NCBI GenBank assembly: GCA_027068435.1
Contig: JAMOTA010000058.1
Coordinates: 1-64,000 of the forward strand
Length of the DNA: 64,000 nucleotides
Source of the DNA: Sulfurovum sp.
GTDB taxonomy: Bacteria; Campylobacterota; Campylobacteria; Campylobacterales; Sulfurovaceae
Direction of reading: 5' to 3'
Part shown: one piece after another, positions 50,473 through 64,000 of the stretch
Layout of the letters: the number at the start of each line of letters is the position of its first letter
How positions within the stretch are numbered: the stretch's first letter is position 1
Program-made: the position numbers and the translations under genes
Notes under the pieces: model-generated
Databases searched by the model: none
Told to the model about the DNA's origin: nothing
What the model saw: only the letters and a program-made list of their open reading frames with translations

Positions 50473-51444
50473 ATGTCTTGGCTTACTACTAAAGAGGGTT
50501 TTACTGAAATAAACAGACTCTCTAAAGCACGTACACCTTTTCTTTTTATCGTCTCTTATGACAAAAAGAAAATCTTTGCCAAGGCACTTCATTCCTTAGA
50601 TGATGATATATTTTACAAATTAGAAGAGTGGCGTAACTACCCTGTTAAAAAACGTACAGATAGTTTTACTTTCTCCAAATCTCCCATAGATTTTTTTACC
50701 TATCAAAACGCTATGTATCGAGTACTTGAAGAGATTCGCTTAGGCAATACCTACCTATTCAACCTTACCTTTAAGACACACATAGAGAGTAGCTTTAGCC
50801 TTAAAGAGATATTTACCTACGCAAGGTCAAAGTTTAAACTCTATTTTAAAGATGAATTTATCTGTTTCTCTCCTGAACGCTTTGTCAACATAGAGCAAAA
50901 CACCATCTCTACTTACCCTATGAAAGGTACGATAGATGCAAATATCCCACAAGCTAAAGAGAAGATATTAGCAGACAAAAAAGAGATGGCTGAGCATGTG
51001 ATGATTGTTGATCTTATGCGTAATGACTTGGGTATTATAGGCGTAGATGTAAAGGTAGAGAAGTTTCGCTTTGTAGAGCAGATAAAAGCTGGAGAGAAAG
51101 CACTTCTACAAGTAAGCTCCAAAATCACCGCTACACTACCTTCTCAGTGGAGAGACACGTTAGGTGACGTGTTAGAACAACTACTTCCTGCTGGGTCTAT
51201 TTCTGGAACACCTAAAAAAAATACACTAAAGATTATAGAGGAGATGGAAGATTATGAGAGAGGTTTTTATACTGGTATATTTGGTCTGTTTGATGGTGAG
51301 TCCCTACGCTCTAGTGTGATGATACGCTTTATCGAAAAAGAGAATCATAAACTTTTTTACAAAAGTGGTGGAGGTATCACCATAGACTCTAGTGCAAAAG
51401 ATGAGTATGCTGAGCTAATAGATAAGATCTATTTACCGTTTTAA
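50473..51444 (+). CDS. pabB: Aminodeoxychorismate synthase component I
   Basis: The 323-residue product is a chorismate-binding enzyme: IRLGNTYLFNLTFKT, CFSPERFV, YPMKGTIDA, VDLMRNDLG and LLPAGSISGTPKKNTLKII. It lacks the longer N-terminal region of TrpE, which favours PabB (folate pathway). It probably shares the pyrB transcript. The last 12 bp overlap the convergent lipoprotein gene. Confidence 0.88.
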   Translation: MSWLTTKEGFTEINRLSKARTPFLFIVSYDKKKIFAKALHSLDDDIFYKLEEWRNYPVKKRTDSFTFSKSPIDFFTYQNAMYRVLEEIRLGNTYLFNLTFKTHIESSFSLKEIFTYARSKFKLYFKDEFICFSPERFVNIEQNTISTYPMKGTIDANIPQAKEKILADKKEMAEHVMIVDLMRNDLGIIGVDVKVEKFRFVEQIKAGEKALLQVSSKITATLPSQWRDTLGDVLEQLLPAGSISGTPKKNTLKIIEEMEDYERGFYTGIFGLFDGESLRSSVMIRFIEKENHKLFYKSGGGITIDSSAKDEYAELIDKIYLPF

Positions 51445-51981
51445 AGGCTTACTTAGGCACCCTCTGTTGGCTCTATGTACCCAATTGTAGGCTTTGTCCT
51501 CATTTATTTTAGAGAAATATAAATCTCCTGAGTCTCTCCAAGGGTCTATCACAACCCCCTCTTCAATCACACCCCCTTTTTTAAGAACTGCCAAAGCATT
51601 GTGTTCAAAAAAGTACTCTCCGATGTTTGCACCTATAAGATGAAACTCAAAGTTTTCATAACGATTGAGAAGATGAAGATAAAGTGCATCACTCCAGTGG
51701 TAGCAGAGTCCTTTTTTACGAAACCCAAGGTTTACTAGAGTGTTATGAAAAAGTGGTGGAGAGGTTAGTTTGAACTCTTGGGCTAAAAGAGAAGTTTTGT
51801 GCAAAATATCTTTAGAGAGTTTAAGTGTCTGTTTTTTAGGTGTAGTAGGGTCTAAGCTTTGCAGTAATTTAGCTAGTTTAATCGTTTTAGAGGGTGACAC
51901 GTTTACACTTACGACACTACAACCTACTATAAGTAGGCTTAGAAAGAAAAAGCTAAAACATCGCTTCAACATAGTGTCCAT
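51433..51981 (-). CDS. Lipoprotein with a transglutaminase/papain-like Cys-His-Asp pattern
   Basis: The 182-residue product starts with a lipobox (LLIVGCSVV, C21 from the first ATG; a second ATG lies three codons on). Three segments stand out: KKGLCYHWSDALYLHLL (C93), FFEHNALAVL (H127) and GVVIDPWRDSGDLYF (D146). That order and setting are those of papain-fold cysteine peptidases and transglutaminases. The family is unnamed to me; activity is inference. It overlaps the rhomboid gene by 29 bp, so the two are co-transcribed. Confidence 0.6.
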   Translation of the reverse strand: MDTMLKRCFSFFFLSLLIVGCSVVSVNVSPSKTIKLAKLLQSLDPTTPKKQTLKLSKDILHKTSLLAQEFKLTSPPLFHNTLVNLGFRKKGLCYHWSDALYLHLLNRYENFEFHLIGANIGEYFFEHNALAVLKKGGVIEEGVVIDPWRDSGDLYFSKINEDKAYNWVHRANRGCLSKPLKR

Positions 51982-53246: not shown

Positions 53247-53834
53247 TTATACACCTTTAATATAGAGATAATTTCGTTGATTTTTCTCTACTATATCATA
53301 ATTTAACTGATGTTGTACCGCTTCTATTTCATCAAAAACACGTGAGCCTTTGTAGAATAGATACTCTGTAGATTCATTAGTAATATTTTTAGTTAACTCC
53401 AAGAGTAACTTTGTATTGGTAACTGCACGTGAGCTAATAAGATCAAAAGCTTCATACTCTATAAACTCAACCCTTTTAGCTTCAACTGTTACGTTGTCTA
53501 ACTCTAAATCTATACTTGCGTATTTAAGAAATGAAACTCTTTTTTTAAGAGGCTCTGCAAGTACCACTTTAGTTTGAGGAAGAGCAATAGCCAACACTAA
53601 ACCAGGAAAACCTGCACCCGTTCCAACATCTAAAAGTGTTTTAGGTTGTTTGATAAAACTTAAAGGATAAAGAGAATCTATGATATTAACATAAATAGCA
53701 TCTATACTTTTAGCCCCTGTTAGGTTATGTATTTGGTTCCACTCATGTAAAAGTGAAGCAAAGTTCTCTAGTTTAAGCATAACATCACTCCCTAAGGTGA
53801 TACCCTCTTTCTCTAAGTATTGTGATAAATTCAC
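53247..53834 (-). CDS. rsmG: 16S rRNA (guanine-N7) methyltransferase
   Basis: The 195-residue product has [37 protein letters not shown] (SAM binding) and [15 protein letters not shown], the RsmG/GidB blocks. It methylates G527 of 16S rRNA. It starts 2 bp after the PqqD-like gene. Confidence 0.93.
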
Positions 53835-53836
53835 TT

Positions 53837-54109
53837 CTATTTTACCTCTATTAACTGGTTATCAAGTAGTTGATTGACAAAACGTATCAAATCTTTCTCT
53901 AACACATCAGACTCAACCTCATACTCTTGAAGTAGTGAGTCTAGTACTTCTTGAAGTGATTTATCTTTTTCCATAGCTTGCCATATAGCTGTACCTACTT
54001 CATCAAGCCCAAAGTAATTTTCGCTATTCATGTCTAGTAGAACCATCTCATCATCTACCTCTTGAGCAAAAATGGTATCTGCAAAGGTTATTTTTTTATT
54101 TAAATCCAT
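53837..54109 (-). CDS. PqqD-like small protein
   Basis: I place the start at the ATG at 54109 (MDLNKKITF), with AGAGG upstream and just after the DsbC-like stop; the open frame extends to 54187 inside that gene. The 90-residue product has [26 protein letters not shown], the PqqD fold signature, and a C-terminal helical region. PqqD proteins bind peptides for radical-SAM maturases; no precursor peptide or radical-SAM gene is here. Confidence 0.72.
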
Positions 54110-54116
54110 AGATGCA

Positions 54117-54884
54117 TTACCTCTTTTTAAAAGGTTTTCCCTTTGGAGTGACAACCTGTGTCCAAGGTATTTTAGTAAAGTTTTCATCGTAAGTTGAAGG
54201 AGTACCTCTTGTACCTAACTCTCTTACTGCTCTCATAGCTCTATCTATCACTTTTTTAGTATCTGCTGAGTATATAAAAGGTTTTTTACCCTTTTGATCA
54301 AACTTCTTATACTCTGTAGAGTTATGGAGTGTAACTTGAGTTAAACGCTCTTTTTTATCTGCATCTGTTTTACCTTGCATTATCCACTCTATCATAGCAG
54401 GTGCTTTTTTATGAAAATTGAGTGGAAAGAAGATTACATGTACTGTGTACTCTGCCAATTTACCCTCAGCAGCTTTTTCAAATTTTCTACAGTAACTACA
54501 CTCTGGGTCTGTTACAAGGTAAATCTCTTTACTACCTTTTCCATAGCTAAAAGAGACACCTGCTTTAATGCTATCTGTATTTTTAGGAAAAACCATCTTA
54601 TTTCCCTCTTTGTCATACCCCGCACCAAAATAAACAGCCCCTGTCTTTTTATCAAGAAAAGCATTGACTACACGAATACCTCTTTTTGTTTGAGACTCTA
54701 ATTTTAAGAAGTAAACACTATCTTTATCTATAGCCTCAACAAGACTCAAGGTCGACTTTTGAAGTGCTTTAGTATTTGTTTTAATCTCTTGTAACTTTTT
54801 AGCATCAAGCTTTACTACTTCTGCACTAAGGTTCACTGCTAACACTACTAGCAGTGAACCTATTATTGATATACCTTTTTTCAC
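54117..54884 (-). CDS. DsbC/DsbG-like periplasmic thiol-disulfide protein
   Basis: The 255-residue product has a signal peptide (MKKGISIIGSLLVVLAVNLSA) and a thioredoxin-fold domain with active site DPECSYCRKF (C129, C132). The N-terminal region (about 22-110) would correspond to the DsbC linker/dimer part. GTRGTPSTYDENF near the end supplies the cis-proline. It would reduce or isomerise disulfides in the periplasm. It is the first gene of the run down to rsmG. Confidence 0.8.
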   Translation of the reverse strand: MKKGISIIGSLLVVLAVNLSAEVVKLDAKKLQEIKTNTKALQKSTLSLVEAIDKDSVYFLKLESQTKRGIRVVNAFLDKKTGAVYFGAGYDKEGNKMVFPKNTDSIKAGVSFSYGKGSKEIYLVTDPECSYCRKFEKAAEGKLAEYTVHVIFFPLNFHKKAPAMIEWIMQGKTDADKKERLTQVTLHNSTEYKKFDQKGKKPFIYSADTKKVIDRAMRAVRELGTRGTPSTYDENFTKIPWTQVVTPKGKPFKKR

Positions 54885-54948: not shown

Positions 54949-57900
54949 TTACTCCAATCTAAGTGTAACATCACCTAAGAGGTTACCATTTAAGATAACA
55001 TCTTTGTAATAACTTCCAAGGTTTTGCTTTGTATGAAGTATTGCTTCACCTAAGGTTTCACCTTGAAGTAAATAATCCATAATCTTTGATGCAACTAAAC
55101 TATTTTGACTATAAGTACTAAATAACACTGAGCCATATACTGCTACAGCACCTTGTTCTCCTTGAGTCAAAAGTTCATGTGCAATCGTTACGCTTGATGC
55201 ATTTTCAACATATGTTGAGTAACAAGAGAGAGGTAAAGCTATTGTTGGTTTCTCATTATTACTTAACTCTGCTATATCACTCTCTCTAAATAAACCATCA
55301 TGTGACCACTTAGTAAATGATGAATGTCCACTAAACATTGTAACTGTTGGGCCATTATTTAATGTAGATAACAAAGCTTCTCTTGCATCTGTTACAGCTG
55401 CATTTAAGTCTCCATTATTCTCTTGAACAAATACATCTATATAGATTTTAGTATTATTCCAACCATTAGCCTCTAGTTTGCTTCCTAACCCATCCATCTG
55501 TTTTGTATGAACGGTAGTTCCTTCATCTTCCCCTGCAATAAGCAGAGCAGTATGAGATGCTGCCTGTCCTGAACTCTTCCAACTTAATGTTTTATTAATC
55601 ACTGTTTCTAACTCATCTAAGCTTCTTACTGGCCATCTACCTATTGCCATTTGTGCTATACCCTCTTCATCTACTACAAATGAAATATCACTTGGGGTGT
55701 GAGTAGTATTTGGATTTGTATAAACGTAAATACTTGGAATAAAGCTTATAGAACCTGCTCCTAAGTAGTCGTTGTAATCTACTGTTGCTGCTCCTACAAG
55801 TTGTACATGGGTTACACCTTTTTCCGCTGCTTCAGCTAAGTAAGATTTAATTGCTTCTGGTGTTGCCATACCATTTCCATATGCTTGGTAGATATCTTCT
55901 ACATTCACCAGTTGAACACCCCATCCTTCACTTTTACGTTGTGTGATGTAGTGGTTTAACATATCATTCATAAAGAGTGGATGAGATATCATGACATAGT
56001 CCGTCCCCTCTTTTACTTCAATATCTGATTTGACTATTTTATCGGTAATAGTCACTTCAGACATCTTTGATGCTAATGGCATTTCATTTTCATAATGTAT
56101 AACTGTTTTATCATAATAATATATGTCATACCCTATATCTTGTCCCATAGCAACTATAGTTAAAGTATTACTTCCTTCATTGATAATACTTAAATCATCT
56201 ATTGGTATCTCTATTTCCCATACTTTACGACCTTGAACTTGTTCTGTTGTTACTTCTGTACCATTTATCAAAATTTGTACTTGGTGTTGTGCTTCTGTCA
56301 CTGTTCCTATATAGATAGCCAGTGAGTCAACTACTCTTCCCTCAACAAATTCCATATCAAACTCTCTTTCTAAAGTCGCTTGACCCATATCTTTTACAAG
56401 TAGGTATGTATCATAAAATATATCTGGACTAGGATTAACTGAACTCAATTTGTTGTTGTTTTCAAATACTTCTTCTTCACTTGTAACTGCTTCAATACCA
56501 TCACTCTCTACAACCAATGATTCATCTACACAAAGTTCATAAGTATTAGTTTTGAGGTAACGTCCATCATTACTATTTATTTTATCCCCTTTAAACTCTA
56601 TCCAACTTCCTACTGTCCATTTCCCTTTTCTATCTAAACCACCAATGTGTCGTTCAACCCCTTCGCCTTTAAAGCTTATTGCTATTGTATTACCTTCTGT
56701 TCTTTTCAGGTCTATTCCTAGCATTAAAAGTTCTTCATGTTCTAAACGGTACACAGCATTTTCAGGAACATTGAGTTGAATACTTTGTTCTTCAAGTTTT
56801 ATATCTCCAGTTACTCTCAACTCTTTCTTCATTGCTGTTTTCATCTTACGATCTAATGCAACTTCTTTTTTTATCTTTTTCCAGTCTATCGCTTCTGTAA
56901 CTGTTTTAAATCCTGTTTGTTCTCCCAATCTAAATGGTCCATGTCTCTCTTCACTTGTATCAAAATCTACTCCTGCTATACCTATAGTATATGTGCCAAG
57001 ATTTTTTGGTACATCTACAGTAACATGGTACTCTTGAAGTTCAAATGAGTCTATATGTCCCATAATAAGTTCACTATTTAATTTTATCCATTTTGTACCT
57101 TTTACTGCGTATATATTGAACCCAACATTACCCATCTCAGTCTCTGTTGCAAACTCTATATCTACACTATCTCCATACGATGTGGCATATACGTATGATA
57201 TCGTTATTGGTAATATCGTTTCATCTTCTTCTTGTGTAATAGTTCCTGTTGCATTAACCTCTCCTATACAGATATCATAAAACTCTTCATACTCTTCACG
57301 ATTTTCATCTTGTACACTTGATACAAATACTTGGAATTCTAATACCCCTGCTGGTACAGTTATCTCTCCTGTATTCTCATCATAAGTTACCCCTTCACTA
57401 AAGGTAATATTGTCATCAGATGCGTTGTAGTCATCATCTTCTGTTGTGTTATTTTCTATTTTAAAACAGTATGTTGTATTGGCTTCAGATACCTCACTCA
57501 ATGTAACATTATGTTCAAGTATTTCTCCCTCTGTTACGTTGTCATCTGTTACGGTTAAGACTGTTGGTGGTGCATCATTATCTTCTATTGTTCCTGTTGC
57601 ACCTACGCCCCCTACAGTAATAGTATAATCTTCACTATCTTCATCTACTGTATCATCTATACTTTCAACTGTTACAGTAAAGTCTTTTACTCCTGTTGGA
57701 ACAGTAATAGTTCCATCACCATTGTTAACCACTCCATCACTAAATACAAACGTAAGGTTATAGTCATTTGCACCCTCTGTTGTGTTATCTGTTATACTAA
57801 ATGAGTAGGTTCTATTTGCATCGGCTAAACCACTTAAGTTTACATCATGTACAAGATCTGTACCCTCTGTTACACTATCTGAAGAAACCGTAAGCACTGT

Positions 57901-60900
57901 CACTGTATCATCATCTAAGATAGTACCTGTACCCGTATCTGTAGTGTCTCCTACAGATCCACCTTCTGTACTACTGACTGAGAGTGTCATATTTTCATCT
58001 GACTCATCTGTAGTATCTTCTATAGTAGGCACAGTTACACTACCTGTTGTACTACCTGCAGATATAGTAATAGTTACGGTTGTTGCATTGTAGTCATCTC
58101 CTGCTTTAGCAGTATTATCACTTGTTGTTAACGTGATATTGATATCTTGACTACTTGGGCTTGTGAGGTTTACTTCAAAGACTAAGTCATCGCCCTCTTC
58201 TACAGTTACATCTCCTACTATTACATCTGGGATAACATAGAATCCAAAGTCATAACTTTCATCTTCTGCTCCACGTACTACTGTTACACTCGTACCTGTT
58301 GGGTCACTAGAATCTACTTCTTTGTCACTACCCTCTTCTATTGGACTTGCTTCATAGGTACTTGATACAGAAACCGTCAGTTCATACGTTGGTAATGTAC
58401 CACTGTTAAAGTTTTCATCAAGCATGAGGTTATAAAAATGATAATCCCCATTTGCATCTGTTACTGTTTTTACAATAGCTGTATCACCATTAGGGTAGGT
58501 AATAGTCAATGTCACATTGGCATCAGTGATACCACTCTCTCCTGCATCTTGAATACCATCTGCATCTGCATCTTCCCAAACACGGTCACCAAGAGTTCCA
58601 CCCACTTTATAGAATCCAAAGTCAGCTGTGTTATCTGTCTCTCCTGCTGTAAGTTCTACGGTGTAGCGTGTTGTTTGTGCATTGTCATCTGCCCCATCGT
58701 TTGCACCATGTGTACTCCAGTACCCTGTCATTACACCTAAATCGTCGCTTACATATACTGTATAGTTACCATCATTTAAACCTGTAAAACTATAGTCACC
58801 ATTGGCATCTGTTTTTGTAGTTGCTACGGTATGGTTAGCATCATCAAGAAGAACAACTGTTACATTTTCAAATCGCTCACTCTCTGATGCATCTAAAGTA
58901 CCATTGGTATCACTATCTTTAAAGAGTGTACCACTAAGCGTATTTGCTGTAGATGCCGTGTATCCAAAGTCTTGATCTAAATCTATTTGGCTGTTACTTG
59001 CATTCAGTACGACTAGAGATTCATTGGCTGTATTACCATCTGGGTCAACACTATTACTTAAGTTTGTTCCACTGTTTGGTAGTGTTGTTGTATCTACTTT
59101 TACGGTGTAGTTATGGTCTGCTGAGAGTCCACTAAAGGTATAGTGTCCATTCTCATCTGTTACAGTAGCGTAAAGTTCTATTACTCCTGCCTCGTCATAA
59201 AGTTTAACAGTTACACCTTCAAGACCTTCACCTGCATCTAATGTATCATCTCCATCACGGTCAAGGAAGACAGTATCTCCTATGAAACCATCGCCTGTGC
59301 TGTGGTTAGAGAGTTTATACCCAAAATCTTGGTTAAGATAATCAGCACTTCCATCAACCGTAATCGTATTACCACCATCTTGCGTAAGGATAAAGTCACT
59401 TACAATTGCATGACTATCTGTTACACGTACGTTATAGTCTCCTGCTTGTACACCAGAGAATGCATAGTGTCCGTTTGCATCTGTAAACATAGTAGCTACT
59501 ATATGACTACCATCATCAAGAAGTGCTACGCTTACACCTGCTATACCTGCTTCACTACCATTTTGTGTAGCATCTGCATCTACATCTAAGTAGATTGTAT
59601 CTCCTATAGTACTACCATCACTTGGTTGGTATCCGAAGTCTCCATTGAGGTAAACATCACCTGGAGCTAGAGGTATTGGGTTACTTGTGTTATCTCCATC
59701 ACTATCTGGGTCACCTGTTGGTGTGGTAGCAAAGTTTGCTGGTAAGCTAGAAGTATTAACCTCTAACACATACGCACCTCTTGCTACATCATCAAAGATA
59801 TAGTAACCATCAGCATCTGTTGTTGCTGTTACGTTTGTATCTCCTGTTCCACCATATATACCATCTTTGTTTGCATCATTCATAAGAGTTACAATCACAC
59901 CTCCTATACCACTCTCTCCTGCATCTTGTACACCATTACCGTTAGCATCATTCCAGATACGGTCACCTATTGCACCTGTTGCATCTGTTGGTGGGTTTGT
60001 TGTATCTGTTGGGCTTACCCAGTTGTAACCAAAGTCTGCACTTAAATGTTTTTCACCTTCGGCAACTGTGACAGAAGTCACATTATCTAAAGTAGCATCT
60101 TCATCATAGGTTGCATTCATTCCACTTGGTGGTGTCACTGTAACACTGTATGTTCCTGCTTCAAGGTTATTGAAGAGGTATCCACCTTCTGTATCTGTTA
60201 CTGTTGTGATACTATTTCCATTACCATCATCTAGTGTAACAGTAACATTAGCCATACCACTCTCACCTGCATCTTGTACACCATTGGCATTCTCATCATA
60301 CCATACACTGTTTCCTATGACTGCTTTAACTTGTGACGCTGGTGGTTGTTGGTATCCATCTTCTCCTGCGTTACTATTTCCACCTGAGGTAATAGTGACA
60401 GTTTGAGGATCTGTTCCTGCTGTCTGTTTTGTGAGGTTTGCTGGTAGTGTACTGTTATTTACATCTACTGTTGCATCTCCTGTTTGGAGGTCTGTTGCAC
60501 TATAGCTACCATTTGCATCTGTTGTAACAGTAGTTACTACATCGTTACTATCTGTAATAATAACATCTACACCACTAAGGTTTGCTTCATCAAACTGCTG
60601 TGTGCCATCGCCGTTACTATCTTCAAATACATGCCCGTGTATAGCACCTTTGTCATCGTCCAGTATGGTTCCTGTTGCACTGACTGTACCTACTGTTATG
60701 TCGTAGAACTCATCATCTTCAGCTGTATCGTCATCTATCACTTTTACTGAAACAGTAAAGCTACTTACTCCTGCTGGAACGCTGATATTGCCATCGCCAT
60801 TGTCAACTACACCATCACTAAATATGTATGTAAGGTTATAGTCATTTACTCCATTTGTACTGTTGTCTACTACATTAAAGGTGTAATTTCTATCTACACT

Positions 60901-63648
60901 AGTTGAAGCACTCATAGTAACTGTATGCACTAAGTCATTTCCCGTACCTTCTGTTTGTGTATCTGAAGTGATACTCGTAACTATAGGTAAGTGAAAACCG
61001 TTGTTCTCTTCTACATTGTTACCATCTACTATGGTAACTGTTGTTGGGTTCCTTCCCTCTGTTTGGGCTGCACCTGTAGGGAAGTCATCATCTGATTCAT
61101 CTATAGTAATATTTGCATCACCCACACTTAAATCAGTAAATGTATAATCTCCACTTGCATTTGTCTCTGTGGTATGGGTAACACCATTAGAATCTACTGC
61201 TGTTACAGTAATATTCGATAAGTTCTCATCTGCATTGTTCTGTACACGATCACCATCTTTATCTTCATAAACATGACCTGTGAGTGTTGATGAAAAAGGT
61301 CTAAATCCAAAAGCAACATTATGATTATTCGCACCTGAATATGCTATCTCTGAAGCTACAATAGAAGCATTGGCATCATTTTCACTTACTGCACCGTCAC
61401 TATCATTTACATTGGTATAACTACCTTCACCTACATCTGTTAAGGTCAATACCTTTCCATCAAGTTCTGTTTGCTTATTTATACCCTTTATATTTGGTAT
61501 TTGTACAATATATGCACTGTTTACAAGAAGTTCCGTTAAATTATATTCAGCATTGGATGTATCTGTTCCTAAAGGGTCATTAGAGAAAAGATAATAACCA
61601 TTAGCATCTGTTTGTACAGTAGCAATAAATGTTCCATCTGCTGCATAAAGTGTGACATTAACATCTGCTATACCACTCTCATTTGCATCTTGGATTCCAT
61701 CACTGTCTTCATCAAACCATACCCTACTTCCTATCTCTGTAGGTGTTGGAGCTGTTAAAAGTTCAACATCACCTAAAGAAGCTCCCTTTGCATTATATCC
61801 AGAGTGTTCATTAGTACCATCACCATCGCAATCATTTGGATTCCCATACAGTATAGAGTACCAATTATCAATACTGCCATCTATTGTACTTAAGGTATTA
61901 ATACCAATAGTACTCTGATATTTAGTATCACTATCACCTCCAGGAAAAGGATCTATAGCAAGATGAAGCAGTTGTTTAGTTCCTTTTAAAAGTGCCAAAG
62001 CACCTCCAGAAAGATTTTTCATCCCATCTCCACCCTTATCATAAAGGAAATAACCATCATCACCATTGGTAGCAGTACATGTACCTGTTCCTTCCAAACT
62101 ATAAGTACTGTTACTCTCGTAGCAGGCTCTTAATAAGTCAGAAACACCTACAACATTTTCATCAGCACTTGTATCTTCACTCACTGGGCGATTGTTATGA
62201 TAGGTTCCTTGCATAGAAAAACGATTAATAAAAGCAATATACATTGTATCATTTTCATCAAACTCAATGTCACCAAGTATTGCTTGATTATATTCATCAA
62301 ACCAATGGCTTCTGTCTACACGACTATTGTCATCTGACCATGTTTTCCAAGATTGCCATGAATCACCACCATTTTTATAATCCAAAGGTATATCTAGCTC
62401 TACTGTAAATCCTGTAGTTGGGTCAGATAAATCAAAAGAGAGTACAAAAGCTCTACTGTCTGTACTTACTTCATTGTCTGTATTACTAGCATCAGATTCA
62501 TCACAGACAGCACCTAAATACCCTTTACTTTGATGTGTAGTTAATGCCCAAGGTCTAAGTTCTCCGTTGGTACAAGTTGGTACATTTGTCATATTTTCTA
62601 TAGAGTATTGCTTTGTAGCAGAACTCAAGTTTGACAAATCTCCACTGGCATCTACAGATATAATCCCTTTTTGATTTAAGTTTACTAACCATAGAGTATT
62701 TGTAGTTTGGTCAAAGTCTATATCTCCAAAACTCATCTTTCCTACTTTAGCATAAGCATCAAGATCTATACTAGGGTCAGATGCATTATCGGGAAGTGTA
62801 TAATCAGCAGCTATGCCTGTATTACTACTTGTACTACCATCGTTGGAACAACTTGCTGCTCTACATACGGTACCCAAATCAATATCTGCACCACCATTGG
62901 CTGGTGTTACACCCTGTAAATCAATATATGTATTAGTCACAGAATTTACACCCGCACTATAATCAAGTATTGACACTCTACCTAACCCTACAGAAGTTAA
63001 GCCAACATGTCTTTGGAGTGAAGCTGAAAGAAATAGTCTCTGCTTATCTTTTTGAAATGCCTGCCCCCATGCTGAACCTACATCTTTCACCTCTGCACTT
63101 ACTGTAGGTACAGGACCCGTACCTTGATCACCATTTTCATCACAGAAATCACTGTTTAGTTCACTGTCCGTGTAATGTACTGTTTCTACACCAGGCTGAC
63201 TATTGTCTGCACTTATACCTGTTTGTTGTCTGCCTAGTATATAATCGGGTGTAGCAGTATCAGAATAGTCACTTGGTTCATGCAGAGCAAAATCTACACT
63301 TGTATCTCCATCTGAGACAAACTGAACAGCAATATTATTTGCTGTATTTGGACTCTCATTTAAATAAATTGGCCAATCTGAAAACTCTACCCGAACATCA
63401 CTTGTAGTTGCTATGCTCCAAGTACCATCTGCTCCTGTAGTAGTTGTACTTGTGCCTCCATCATAATAGGCTGTAACTGTTACACCAGCAACTCCCAATT
63501 CATTACTATCCTTAGAACCATATGTATTTAATGCTGTACCATCTACTGCTAAATCTCTAAAAACTAGACCATTTACATCTGCTTGCAGTCCCGTTACAAA
63601 CAGTAAAAATATTAGGTGTGAAAAAATAAATTTTATCCATTTATTCAT
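54949..63648 (-). CDS. Giant secreted protein: SdrD-B-like and Calx-beta domains with C-terminal gingipain-like (C25) peptidase
   Basis: The 2899-residue product has a signal peptide (IFLLFVTGLQA, cut near residue 23) and an SdrD-B-like domain at about 24-120. A Cys-containing region of about 500 residues follows that looks like a beta-propeller (not assigned). Then come about nine SdrD-B-like units starting near 639, 787, 1003, 1110, 1227, 1348, 1455, 1570 and 1687 (pattern IGDxVWxDxDxDGxQDxGE), with four Calx-beta-type domains near 888, 1808, 1915 and 2028. A 400-residue link (2140-2545) has a jelly-roll-like part. Residues about 2550-2899 form a caspase-fold C25 domain with FSGHSSF (H2775) and LPLSCYSTY (C2809), a spacing of 34 against 33 in gingipains. 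No sortase or T9SS tail is seen. AGGAGG precedes the ATG. Confidence 0.8.
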   Translation of the reverse strand: MNKWIKFIFSHLIFLLFVTGLQADVNGLVFRDLAVDGTALNTYGSKDSNELGVAGVTVTAYYDGGTSTTTTGADGTWSIATTSDVRVEFSDWPIYLNESPNTANNIAVQFVSDGDTSVDFALHEPSDYSDTATPDYILGRQQTGISADNSQPGVETVHYTDSELNSDFCDENGDQGTGPVPTVSAEVKDVGSAWGQAFQKDKQRLFLSASLQRHVGLTSVGLGRVSILDYSAGVNSVTNTYIDLQGVTPANGGADIDLGTVCRAASCSNDGSTSSNTGIAADYTLPDNASDPSIDLDAYAKVGKMSFGDIDFDQTTNTLWLVNLNQKGIISVDASGDLSNLSSATKQYSIENMTNVPTCTNGELRPWALTTHQSKGYLGAVCDESDASNTDNEVSTDSRAFVLSFDLSDPTTGFTVELDIPLDYKNGGDSWQSWKTWSDDNSRVDRSHWFDEYNQAILGDIEFDENDTMYIAFINRFSMQGTYHNNRPVSEDTSADENVVGVSDLLRACYESNSTYSLEGTGTCTATNGDDGYFLYDKGGDGMKNLSGGALALLKGTKQLLHLAIDPFPGGDSDTKYQSTIGINTLSTIDGSIDNWYSILYGNPNDCDGDGTNEHSGYNAKGASLGDVELLTAPTPTEIGSRVWFDEDSDGIQDANESGIADVNVTLYAADGTFIATVQTDANGYYLFSNDPLGTDTSNAEYNLTELLVNSAYIVQIPNIKGINKQTELDGKVLTLTDVGEGSYTNVNDSDGAVSENDANASIVASEIAYSGANNHNVAFGFRPFSSTLTGHVYEDKDGDRVQNNADENLSNITVTAVDSNGVTHTTETNASGDYTFTDLSVGDANITIDESDDDFPTGAAQTEGRNPTTVTIVDGNNVEENNGFHLPIVTSITSDTQTEGTGNDLVHTVTMSASTSVDRNYTFNVVDNSTNGVNDYNLTYIFSDGVVDNGDGNISVPAGVSSFTVSVKVIDDDTAEDDEFYDITVGTVSATGTILDDDKGAIHGHVFEDSNGDGTQQFDEANLSGVDVIITDSNDVVTTVTTDANGSYSATDLQTGDATVDVNNSTLPANLTKQTAGTDPQTVTITSGGNSNAGEDGYQQPPASQVKAVIGNSVWYDENANGVQDAGESGMANVTVTLDDGNGNSITTVTDTEGGYLFNNLEAGTYSVTVTPPSGMNATYDEDATLDNVTSVTVAEGEKHLSADFGYNWVSPTDTTNPPTDATGAIGDRIWNDANGNGVQDAGESGIGGVIVTLMNDANKDGIYGGTGDTNVTATTDADGYYIFDDVARGAYVLEVNTSSLPANFATTPTGDPDSDGDNTSNPIPLAPGDVYLNGDFGYQPSDGSTIGDTIYLDVDADATQNGSEAGIAGVSVALLDDGSHIVATMFTDANGHYAFSGVQAGDYNVRVTDSHAIVSDFILTQDGGNTITVDGSADYLNQDFGYKLSNHSTGDGFIGDTVFLDRDGDDTLDAGEGLEGVTVKLYDEAGVIELYATVTDENGHYTFSGLSADHNYTVKVDTTTLPNSGTNLSNSVDPDGNTANESLVVLNASNSQIDLDQDFGYTASTANTLSGTLFKDSDTNGTLDASESERFENVTVVLLDDANHTVATTKTDANGDYSFTGLNDGNYTVYVSDDLGVMTGYWSTHGANDGADDNAQTTRYTVELTAGETDNTADFGFYKVGGTLGDRVWEDADADGIQDAGESGITDANVTLTITYPNGDTAIVKTVTDANGDYHFYNLMLDENFNSGTLPTYELTVSVSSTYEASPIEEGSDKEVDSSDPTGTSVTVVRGAEDESYDFGFYVIPDVIVGDVTVEEGDDLVFEVNLTSPSSQDINITLTTSDNTAKAGDDYNATTVTITISAGSTTGSVTVPTIEDTTDESDENMTLSVSSTEGGSVGDTTDTGTGTILDDDTVTVLTVSSDSVTEGTDLVHDVNLSGLADANRTYSFSITDNTTEGANDYNLTFVFSDGVVNNGDGTITVPTGVKDFTVTVESIDDTVDEDSEDYTITVGGVGATGTIEDNDAPPTVLTVTDDNVTEGEILEHNVTLSEVSEANTTYCFKIENNTTEDDDYNASDDNITFSEGVTYDENTGEITVPAGVLEFQVFVSSVQDENREEYEEFYDICIGEVNATGTITQEEDETILPITISYVYATSYGDSVDIEFATETEMGNVGFNIYAVKGTKWIKLNSELIMGHIDSFELQEYHVTVDVPKNLGTYTIGIAGVDFDTSEERHGPFRLGEQTGFKTVTEAIDWKKIKKEVALDRKMKTAMKKELRVTGDIKLEEQSIQLNVPENAVYRLEHEELLMLGIDLKRTEGNTIAISFKGEGVERHIGGLDRKGKWTVGSWIEFKGDKINSNDGRYLKTNTYELCVDESLVVESDGIEAVTSEEEVFENNNKLSSVNPSPDIFYDTYLLVKDMGQATLEREFDMEFVEGRVVDSLAIYIGTVTEAQHQVQILINGTEVTTEQVQGRKVWEIEIPIDDLSIINEGSNTLTIVAMGQDIGYDIYYYDKTVIHYENEMPLASKMSEVTITDKIVKSDIEVKEGTDYVMISHPLFMNDMLNHYITQRKSEGWGVQLVNVEDIYQAYGNGMATPEAIKSYLAEAAEKGVTHVQLVGAATVDYNDYLGAGSISFIPSIYVYTNPNTTHTPSDISFVVDEEGIAQMAIGRWPVRSLDELETVINKTLSWKSSGQAASHTALLIAGEDEGTTVHTKQMDGLGSKLEANGWNNTKIYIDVFVQENNGDLNAAVTDAREALLSTLNNGPTVTMFSGHSSFTKWSHDGLFRESDIAELSNNEKPTIALPLSCYSTYVENASSVTIAHELLTQGEQGAVAVYGSVLFSTYSQNSLVASKIMDYLLQGETLGEAILHTKQNLGSYYKDVILNGNLLGDVTLRLE

Positions 63649-63780: not shown

Positions 63781-64000
63781 CTATTTAAACACCCAACTTT
63801 TTAACTTTTCATCCCAAGCTGTAAGATAGTATTTACGGTCTTTTTTTGCAGTTTGGGTGATAAGTGAGTACATAAAAGGGATAGTTTGTAACTCTAGGGT
63901 ATTTTTAGCTTTTACTTTTATTTTACGTATGAATTCGTTTGCATTTGGTAAAGTGAGGAGTGTTTTAGCTCTGTTTTTAGCTCTATTTTTGACTATTTGA
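63781..64000 (-). CDS. 3' end of an unidentified gene running off the right edge
   Basis: On the minus strand an open frame of 72 codons enters at 64000 and ends with TAG at 63783-63781. The visible C-terminus is basic and ends YYLTAWDEKLKSWVFK. A KNRAKNRAK repeat lies at its start. The protein is cytosolic by appearance. I do not recognise a family. Confidence 0.5.
   Translation of the reverse strand, partial: QIVKNRAKNRAKTLLTLPNANEFIRKIKVKAKNTLELQTIPFMYSLITQTAKKDRKYYLTAWDEKLKSWVFK

Follow-up and report, generated by a model that had tools for sequence, protein, structure and literature searches.

The gene for a 2899-residue exported protein that ends in a peptidase domain of family C25 lies, judging by its predicted neighbors, inside a lasso-peptide gene cluster of a Sulfurovum genome. 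We put at roughly 0.55 the probability of a partnership between the C25 protein and the lasso peptide, with the former as an accessory extracytoplasmic cysteine peptidase of that cluster. The stretch of DNA analyzed here (the window) is 64,000 nucleotides long and lies on contig C58 of a 2.0-Mb Sulfurovaceae MAG (the window genome, G000), in agreement with the Campylobacterota-like origin that an earlier, sequence-only reading had proposed. That reading took the giant protein for a surface stalk with a built-in gingipain-like protease, and our results partly support it. The lasso-cluster setting, which was invisible within the sequence that it considered, suggests a role for C25 that is tied to a peptide.

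A literature search, conducted in full texts and mostly without subscription papers, returned no exported caspase, gingipain-type or C25 protease tied to lasso peptides. What appears to be new is the pairing of a lasso cluster with an exported C25 protease that would be dedicated to it; lasso clusters with isopeptidases and with exporters are already known.

The giant protein and its stalk

The open reading frame of the giant protein (Table 1) starts with ATG, is preceded just 5′ by AGGAGG, a strong ribosome-binding site, and runs without an internal stop. A promoter scan 5′ of the gene gave a signal no higher than that of shuffles. On inspection of the sequence, the signal peptide lacks a lipobox. 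Pfam finds nine SdrD_B stretches in the protein (E = 2e-140), and a motif count likewise gives nine, with units starting at residues 639, 789, 1003, 1111, 1227, 1348, 1456, 1571 and 1686. The earlier description spoke of about ten such units; the count is nine. Calx-beta is significant once by Pfam (residues 1815-1914), and segments 886-1000, 1806-1915, 1915-2025 and 2027-2142 align together as a Calx-beta unit, so that speaking of four Calx-beta-like domains was fair. The stalk is acidic and of a Ca-binding type. The protein shares its SdrD-B repeats with the MSCRAMM proteins SdrD and SdrC, but it scores far below the cut-offs of their NCBIfam models (279 of 2500 and 230 of 1700 bits), belongs to a Gram-negative host, and has a C25 end instead of a wall anchor.

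Table 1. Annotated features of the window
Feature	Position	Strand	Basis
rsmG-like gene	53247..53834	minus	sequence; conserved chromosomal neighbor of the lasso clusters of Sulfurovum relatives
PqqD-family gene (lasso B1/RRE)	53837..54109 (ORF listed from 54187)	minus	Pfam/NCBIfam
DsbG-like exported thioredoxin-fold protein	54117..54884	minus	Pfam/NCBIfam; same position in lasso clusters of relatives
Giant exported C25 protein, 2899 aa	54949..63648	minus	ORF with AGGAGG RBS; Pfam/NCBIfam domains
C25 peptidase domain, residues 2551-2898	54955..55998	minus	Pfam, clade profile, fold, dyad alignment
Cys2809 codon	55222-55224	minus	
His2775 codon	55324-55326	minus	
FN3-like and pre-C25 beta domains, residues 2143-2550	55999..57222	minus	alignments; common to lasso-linked relatives
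Stalk, residues 639-2142: nine SdrD-B and four Calx-beta-like units	57223..61734	minus	Pfam and segment alignment
N-terminal region, residues 24-638	61735..63579	minus	without a best Pfam stretch
Sec-type signal peptide, residues ~1-23 (MNKWIKFIFSHLIFLLFVTGLQA, putatively cleaved before DVNG)	63580..63648	minus	read by eye; putative cleavage site
3′ end of SGL-propeller-like gene, start of the upstream part of the cluster	63781..64000	minus	

The C25 profile stops at residue 2898 of 2899, so that no C-terminal anchor and, as had been noted before, no T9SS tail comes after it; Pfam found no other C-terminal domain there. A search of the genome for PF14349 (SprA, T9SS translocon) gave no match, and its control gave none either. 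No outer-membrane export route was identified for the giant protein.

A peptidase domain of family C25

Three lines of evidence place the C-terminus of the giant protein in family C25 as a predicted peptidase, namely its profile, its dyad, and its modeled caspase-like fold. The Pfam Peptidase_C25 profile is covered in full (E = 5e-57, 194 bits against a cut-off of 23), which bears out the domain assignment of the sequence-only reading. The catalytic dyad that it described is intact, with H2775 in FSGHS and C2809 in PLSCY; the two lie 34 residues apart, compared with 33 in gingipains, and both are invariant in 26 of the 26 C25 domains that we aligned. In an AlphaFold2 model of the C25 domain alone, which is of modest confidence (pTM 0.63, pLDDT 58), the predicted fold resembles that of caspases and gingipains. 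In structural alignment it matches RgpB with Z 20.3 across 290 residues and Kgp with Z 17.1, followed by separases and caspases with lower scores. Thus, neither of the outcomes named in advance as fatal to a C25 assignment, a fold unlike that of caspases or a dyad that varies among homologues, was seen. We used the domain alone because a 760-residue model was too shallow (pLDDT 55, and under 50 for the bulk of the C25 domain). Foldseek itself ranked shikimate dehydrogenases at the top, with a TM of only ~0.2, and this ranking was set aside for the re-aligned candidates.

By sequence, the nearest solved relative is the sortase PorU, not a gingipain. A profile of the clade described below matches PorU at 1e-22, RgpB at 3.5e-10 and Kgp at 1e-6, both dyad residues being in register, and a sequence search also matched PorU at 2e-6. 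The PorU model NF033707 matches residues 2469-2898 at 145 bits, below its cut-off of 420. By predicted structure, RgpB is nearer than PorU, the latent form of which gives Z 9.5. The window protein resembles the MEROPS C25 members RgpB, RgpA, Kgp and PorU in its C25 Pfam domain, caspase-like fold, dyad and pre-C25 beta domain. It differs from them in that its C25 domain stands at the extreme C-terminus, without a T9SS tail, behind a giant SdrD-B/Calx-beta stalk, and in a lasso cluster.

A lasso-peptide cluster across two contigs

The end of C58 cuts a gene for a lasso cyclase, the other half of which terminates contig C1 of the same genome, and an exact 127-bp overlap joins the two contig ends. 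Beyond the window, C58 encodes a protein resembling copper amine oxidases, an RnfD-like membrane protein, an HprK-like kinase and the C-terminal portion of the interrupted cyclase; across the overlap, C1 encodes a 50-aa precursor candidate, B2 and an ABC exporter. The joined order is thus ABC exporter (D), B2, precursor candidate (A), cyclase (C), HprK-like kinase (K), RnfD-like protein, CuAO-like amine oxidase, SGL-like protein, C25 giant, DsbG-like protein, PqqD/B1 and rsmG.

The assignments of the core genes rest on several family models. PqqD, two genes from C25, matches Pfam at 7e-19, and its best NCBIfam model is that of lasso PqqD (NF033536), below the exception cut-off. B2, which is transglutaminase-like, matches PF13471 at 3e-17 in the window genome, and the B2 of one relative scores above the NF033537 cut-off. 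For the asparagine-synthase-like cyclase, NF033535 is the best model for the window fragment and for loci L062 and L066, in each case below the exception cut-off, while for the cyclases of L015 and L018 the generic TIGR01536 scores slightly better. The cyclase frame of the window genome is open right after A, and no ATG, GTG or TTG stands near its expected start. The kinase carries GGKST and SDDK motifs.

It is instructive to compare this cluster with known systems. The bsf cluster of Bradymonas sediminis shares A, B1, B2, C and K with it, and the exported C25 protein together with the RnfD-, CuAO-, SGL- and DsbG-like proteins are additions to the bsf-type genes as described (PMC10368454). The lasso isopeptidases AtxE2 and SpI offer another comparison. 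They are serine, S9-like enzymes, and thus of another protease family than the window C25, from which they also differ in being stalk-less and divergently transcribed. Like it, they are dedicated proteases beside lasso clusters, those of astexin, benenodin and sphingocin (PMC11006600).

Two other features of this part of the window deserve mention. The DsbG-like gene contains, within its opening codons, a 13-bp perfect inverted repeat around a 7-base loop (54829-54861). At 51433-51981, adjoining a rhomboid gene, lies a gene for a lipoprotein-like protein of 182 aa with a C..H..D arrangement (LCYHW, EHNAL, VIDPW) and without a Pfam match; similar genes occur near rsmG in relatives.

Lasso linkage across one C25 clade

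The C-terminal ~750 residues of the giant protein recur, complete or partial, at five sites (L014/L061, L015/L063, L018/L064, L060 and L062). When 26 C25 domains are placed in a tree, the window C25 forms one clade with those of L014, L015, L018, L060 and L062 (support 100/99), the members being 47-55% identical to it. In a collection of genome contigs, the C25 domain as a single query matched nothing and an alignment query matched six loci; viral contigs gave no C25 match. Several of the clade loci are short MAG contigs. The bins of L060 and L062 are assigned to Gracilibacteria and Proteobacteria, respectively; L060 may be a misbinned Sulfurovum contig.

Four of these loci (L015, L018, L060 and L062) have readable DNA downstream, and all four show the order C25-A-C. 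The gap from C25 to A is -1 bp in L015, 22 bp in L018, 26 bp in L060 and 8 bp in L062, and the small precursor-like ORFs are 57-63 aa long (58 codons in L062). An HprK-like kinase is found wherever the contig reaches far enough, as it does in L015, L018 and L062; the contig of L014 stops 62 bp after its C25 gene. The L062 locus as a whole reads K-C25-A-C, and its C25 protein is complete at 1144 aa. Lasso linkage therefore holds in all five clade loci with readable flanks, which lie in differing chromosomal contexts and, in four cases, show tight C25-A spacing. Chance is a poor explanation for such linkage. Yet the linkage may have arisen once and been inherited since, so that the five loci are not five independent events.

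The stalk is not kept across the clade. L062 and L015 bear the same C-terminal ~750 residues behind other N-termini, so that only this part is conserved and the stalk is the variable one. The proposal of adhesion combined with digestion or self-release has no evidence of its own.

The precursors of the four loci and the window candidate share Y(-17), P(-14), G(-8) and T or I(-2) in one register, while their core sequences differ strongly among loci. Asp8 is present in four of the five cores (L015, L018, L060 and L062). Ser3 is found in three of the five (L018, L060 and L062), and the remaining two have another Ser. The window candidate is atypical; its core, KDASDIDGG.., has Lys1, is preceded by Ile(-2), and would use Asp7 as the ring acid. 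This 50-aa ORF is probably the lasso precursor of the window genome. The L062 precursor reaches 16 bits with the lasso leader model, against a cut-off of 19. The bsf system shares with these precursors YxxPxL at -17 to -12, the Asp8 ring, Ser3 (as in the L018, L060 and L062 cores) and Ile(-2) (as in the window candidate); BsfA has the same register, its -2 residue is Ile, and its Ser3 is phosphorylated by BsfK (PMC10368454). The lasso peptide of the window cluster is probably kinase-modified as well.

Distribution of C25 and of other exported proteases

Lasso clusters are far from being always paired with C25. HprK of this type occurs in 57 of 175 genomes of the family, while C25 occurs by Pfam in 10 of the 175 and this clade in three; run on 397 genomes from the whole phylum, the clade model matches the window genome only. 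Among 20 HprK neighborhoods that we examined, many are lasso clusters beside rsmG without C25. C25 is missing from the majority of the family's lasso clusters, so these normally produce their peptide in its absence. In L066 (3898-5040), L067 (3256-4434) and L074 (6061-7239), none of which has C25, an exported S8 subtilase lies between rsmG and the lasso genes. Thus, an exported protease appears to be a repeated companion of these clusters, and its family varies.

Some Sulfurovum relatives have a second HprK-like gene without a cyclase (L073:2852-6426, L075:6077-10171, L077:14296-18697, L082:6533-10409, L085:5657-10727). It adjoins genes for a small twin-arginine-like protein (RRxFLKKAAYxxPxLxxLG...GPSGPP), which shares the lasso-leader-like YxxP..LG motif, for a lipoprotein-like protein, and for a large secreted protein, which has LamG domains in L075, L077 and L082.

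Outside the clade, the picture is different. Of 20 such C25 loci, 15 have no lasso or PqqD/HprK neighbors. In four gammaproteobacterial ones (L128-L131), C25 lies near genes for PqqD, an HprK-like protein, a radical-SAM/SPASM maturase and an S26-type signal-peptidase-like protein, neighbors that were in part scored with family models and otherwise identified by eye. In L115, a lasso-like precursor lies 4 kb from C25. Among these loci, the stalk-protease pairing turns up again without lasso genes in gammaproteobacterial genomes, either in tandem, with the C25 gene directly after a separate giant SdrD-B gene (L119, L122, L123 and L124), or as a fusion of C25 to 16 SdrD-B units (L121). The pairing of stalk and protease is therefore recurrent, whereas lasso linkage is the property of one clade. 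Of 369 genomes from the class to which G542 belongs, 12 have a C25 that the clade model matches. G123, G141, G165 and G060 give weak C25 matches, and G051 and G152 have C25 proteins of other architecture on contigs without lasso neighbors. The C25 protein on the G162 contig (L017) has an apparent Bacteroidota T9SS tail, and this contig is probably misbinned.

A proposed role with the lasso peptide and its alternatives

How might the C25 protein act? In the sequence of events that we envisage, B1 would bind precursor A, K would modify it as BsfK modifies Ser3, B2 would trim it, C would close the ring, and the ABC protein would export the peptide. The C25 protein would leave via Sec and encounter the peptide outside the cytoplasm, the stalk having no other task than to place the protease. 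There, the most likely mechanism would be cleavage of the exported peptide by the C25 domain, resulting in tail trimming, linearization or release. That the peptide is in fact the substrate is a more tentative proposition than the partnership itself, and we would give it somewhat less than even odds. Speaking against it, gingipains have Arg or Lys as P1 residues, and the core tails are without either. Against the partnership as a whole, the window C25 lies six genes from A, unlike in the other loci, the precursor candidate is atypical, and most C25 genes outside the clade, like most lasso clusters of the family, do without the pairing.

The conserved association with lasso genes must be weighed against the idea that the protein is an independent stalk-borne surface protease, active in adhesion and digestion, which owes its position to an insertion hot spot beside rsmG that it shares with the cluster. 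An acidic stalk of Ca-binding type suits an extracellular protein, and the tandem and fused pairs of gammaproteobacterial genomes do without lasso genes. However, C25 is lasso-linked in five of five readable clade loci in differing contexts, with tight C25-A spacing in four, and the clade has not kept the stalk; we give this account about one chance in four. Another thought is that the peptide regulates the protease, inhibiting or gating a co-operonic secreted C25 in the manner of a bacterial protease-inhibitor pair. Some lasso peptides, such as propeptin, do inhibit proteases; C25 and A are nearly translationally coupled, which would give matched expression; and unrelated exported proteases (C25 and S8) occur in related clusters. 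A tightly matched pair would not be expected to combine strongly varying cores with a conserved C25 active-site region, and regulation of this kind seems to us unlikely.

The kinship with PorU raises the further idea of a sortase-like transpeptidase, which would attach either the peptide or the stalk of the enzyme itself to an acceptor at the surface. PorU is indeed the nearest solved relative in both sequence-based comparisons, and NF033707 spans the C-terminal region. But the score of that model falls well short of its cut-off, a T9SS tail is absent, and RgpB is structurally nearer than the latent form of PorU, so we hold such activity to be rather improbable. Removal of the lasso leader by C25, in place of the leader peptidase, is the least credible of these ideas. 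It draws on the fact that B2 was not found in G054 and G543, nor on the C25 contigs of L015, L018, L060 and L062. Yet the MAG of G054 is incomplete, and B2 does occur in G000, G062 and G542, in the last of these beside PqqD; leader removal is cytoplasmic, while those C25 proteins whose start can be read bear a signal peptide. With B2 and PqqD present and C25 marked for export, C25 is very unlikely to be the leader peptidase, and its role as a replacement for B2 was rejected, because the two coexist.

Implications

An accessory peptidase that meets the lasso peptide outside the cytoplasm may be one instance of something broader. The lasso clade and the radical-SAM/PqqD/HprK/S26 cassettes of L128-L131 could together mean that C25 is a general exported partner of RRE/HprK-guided peptide systems, providing a so far unrecognized post-export or self-protection step across RiPP classes. 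We regard this generalization as speculative, with odds of perhaps one in four. If the peptide is the substrate or the ligand of C25, it would amount to a novel route for the maturation, release or control of such a peptide, and the C25 enzymes found outside Bacteroidetes would gain a testable role. The short K-C25-A-C locus of L062 puts the question within reach of E. coli.
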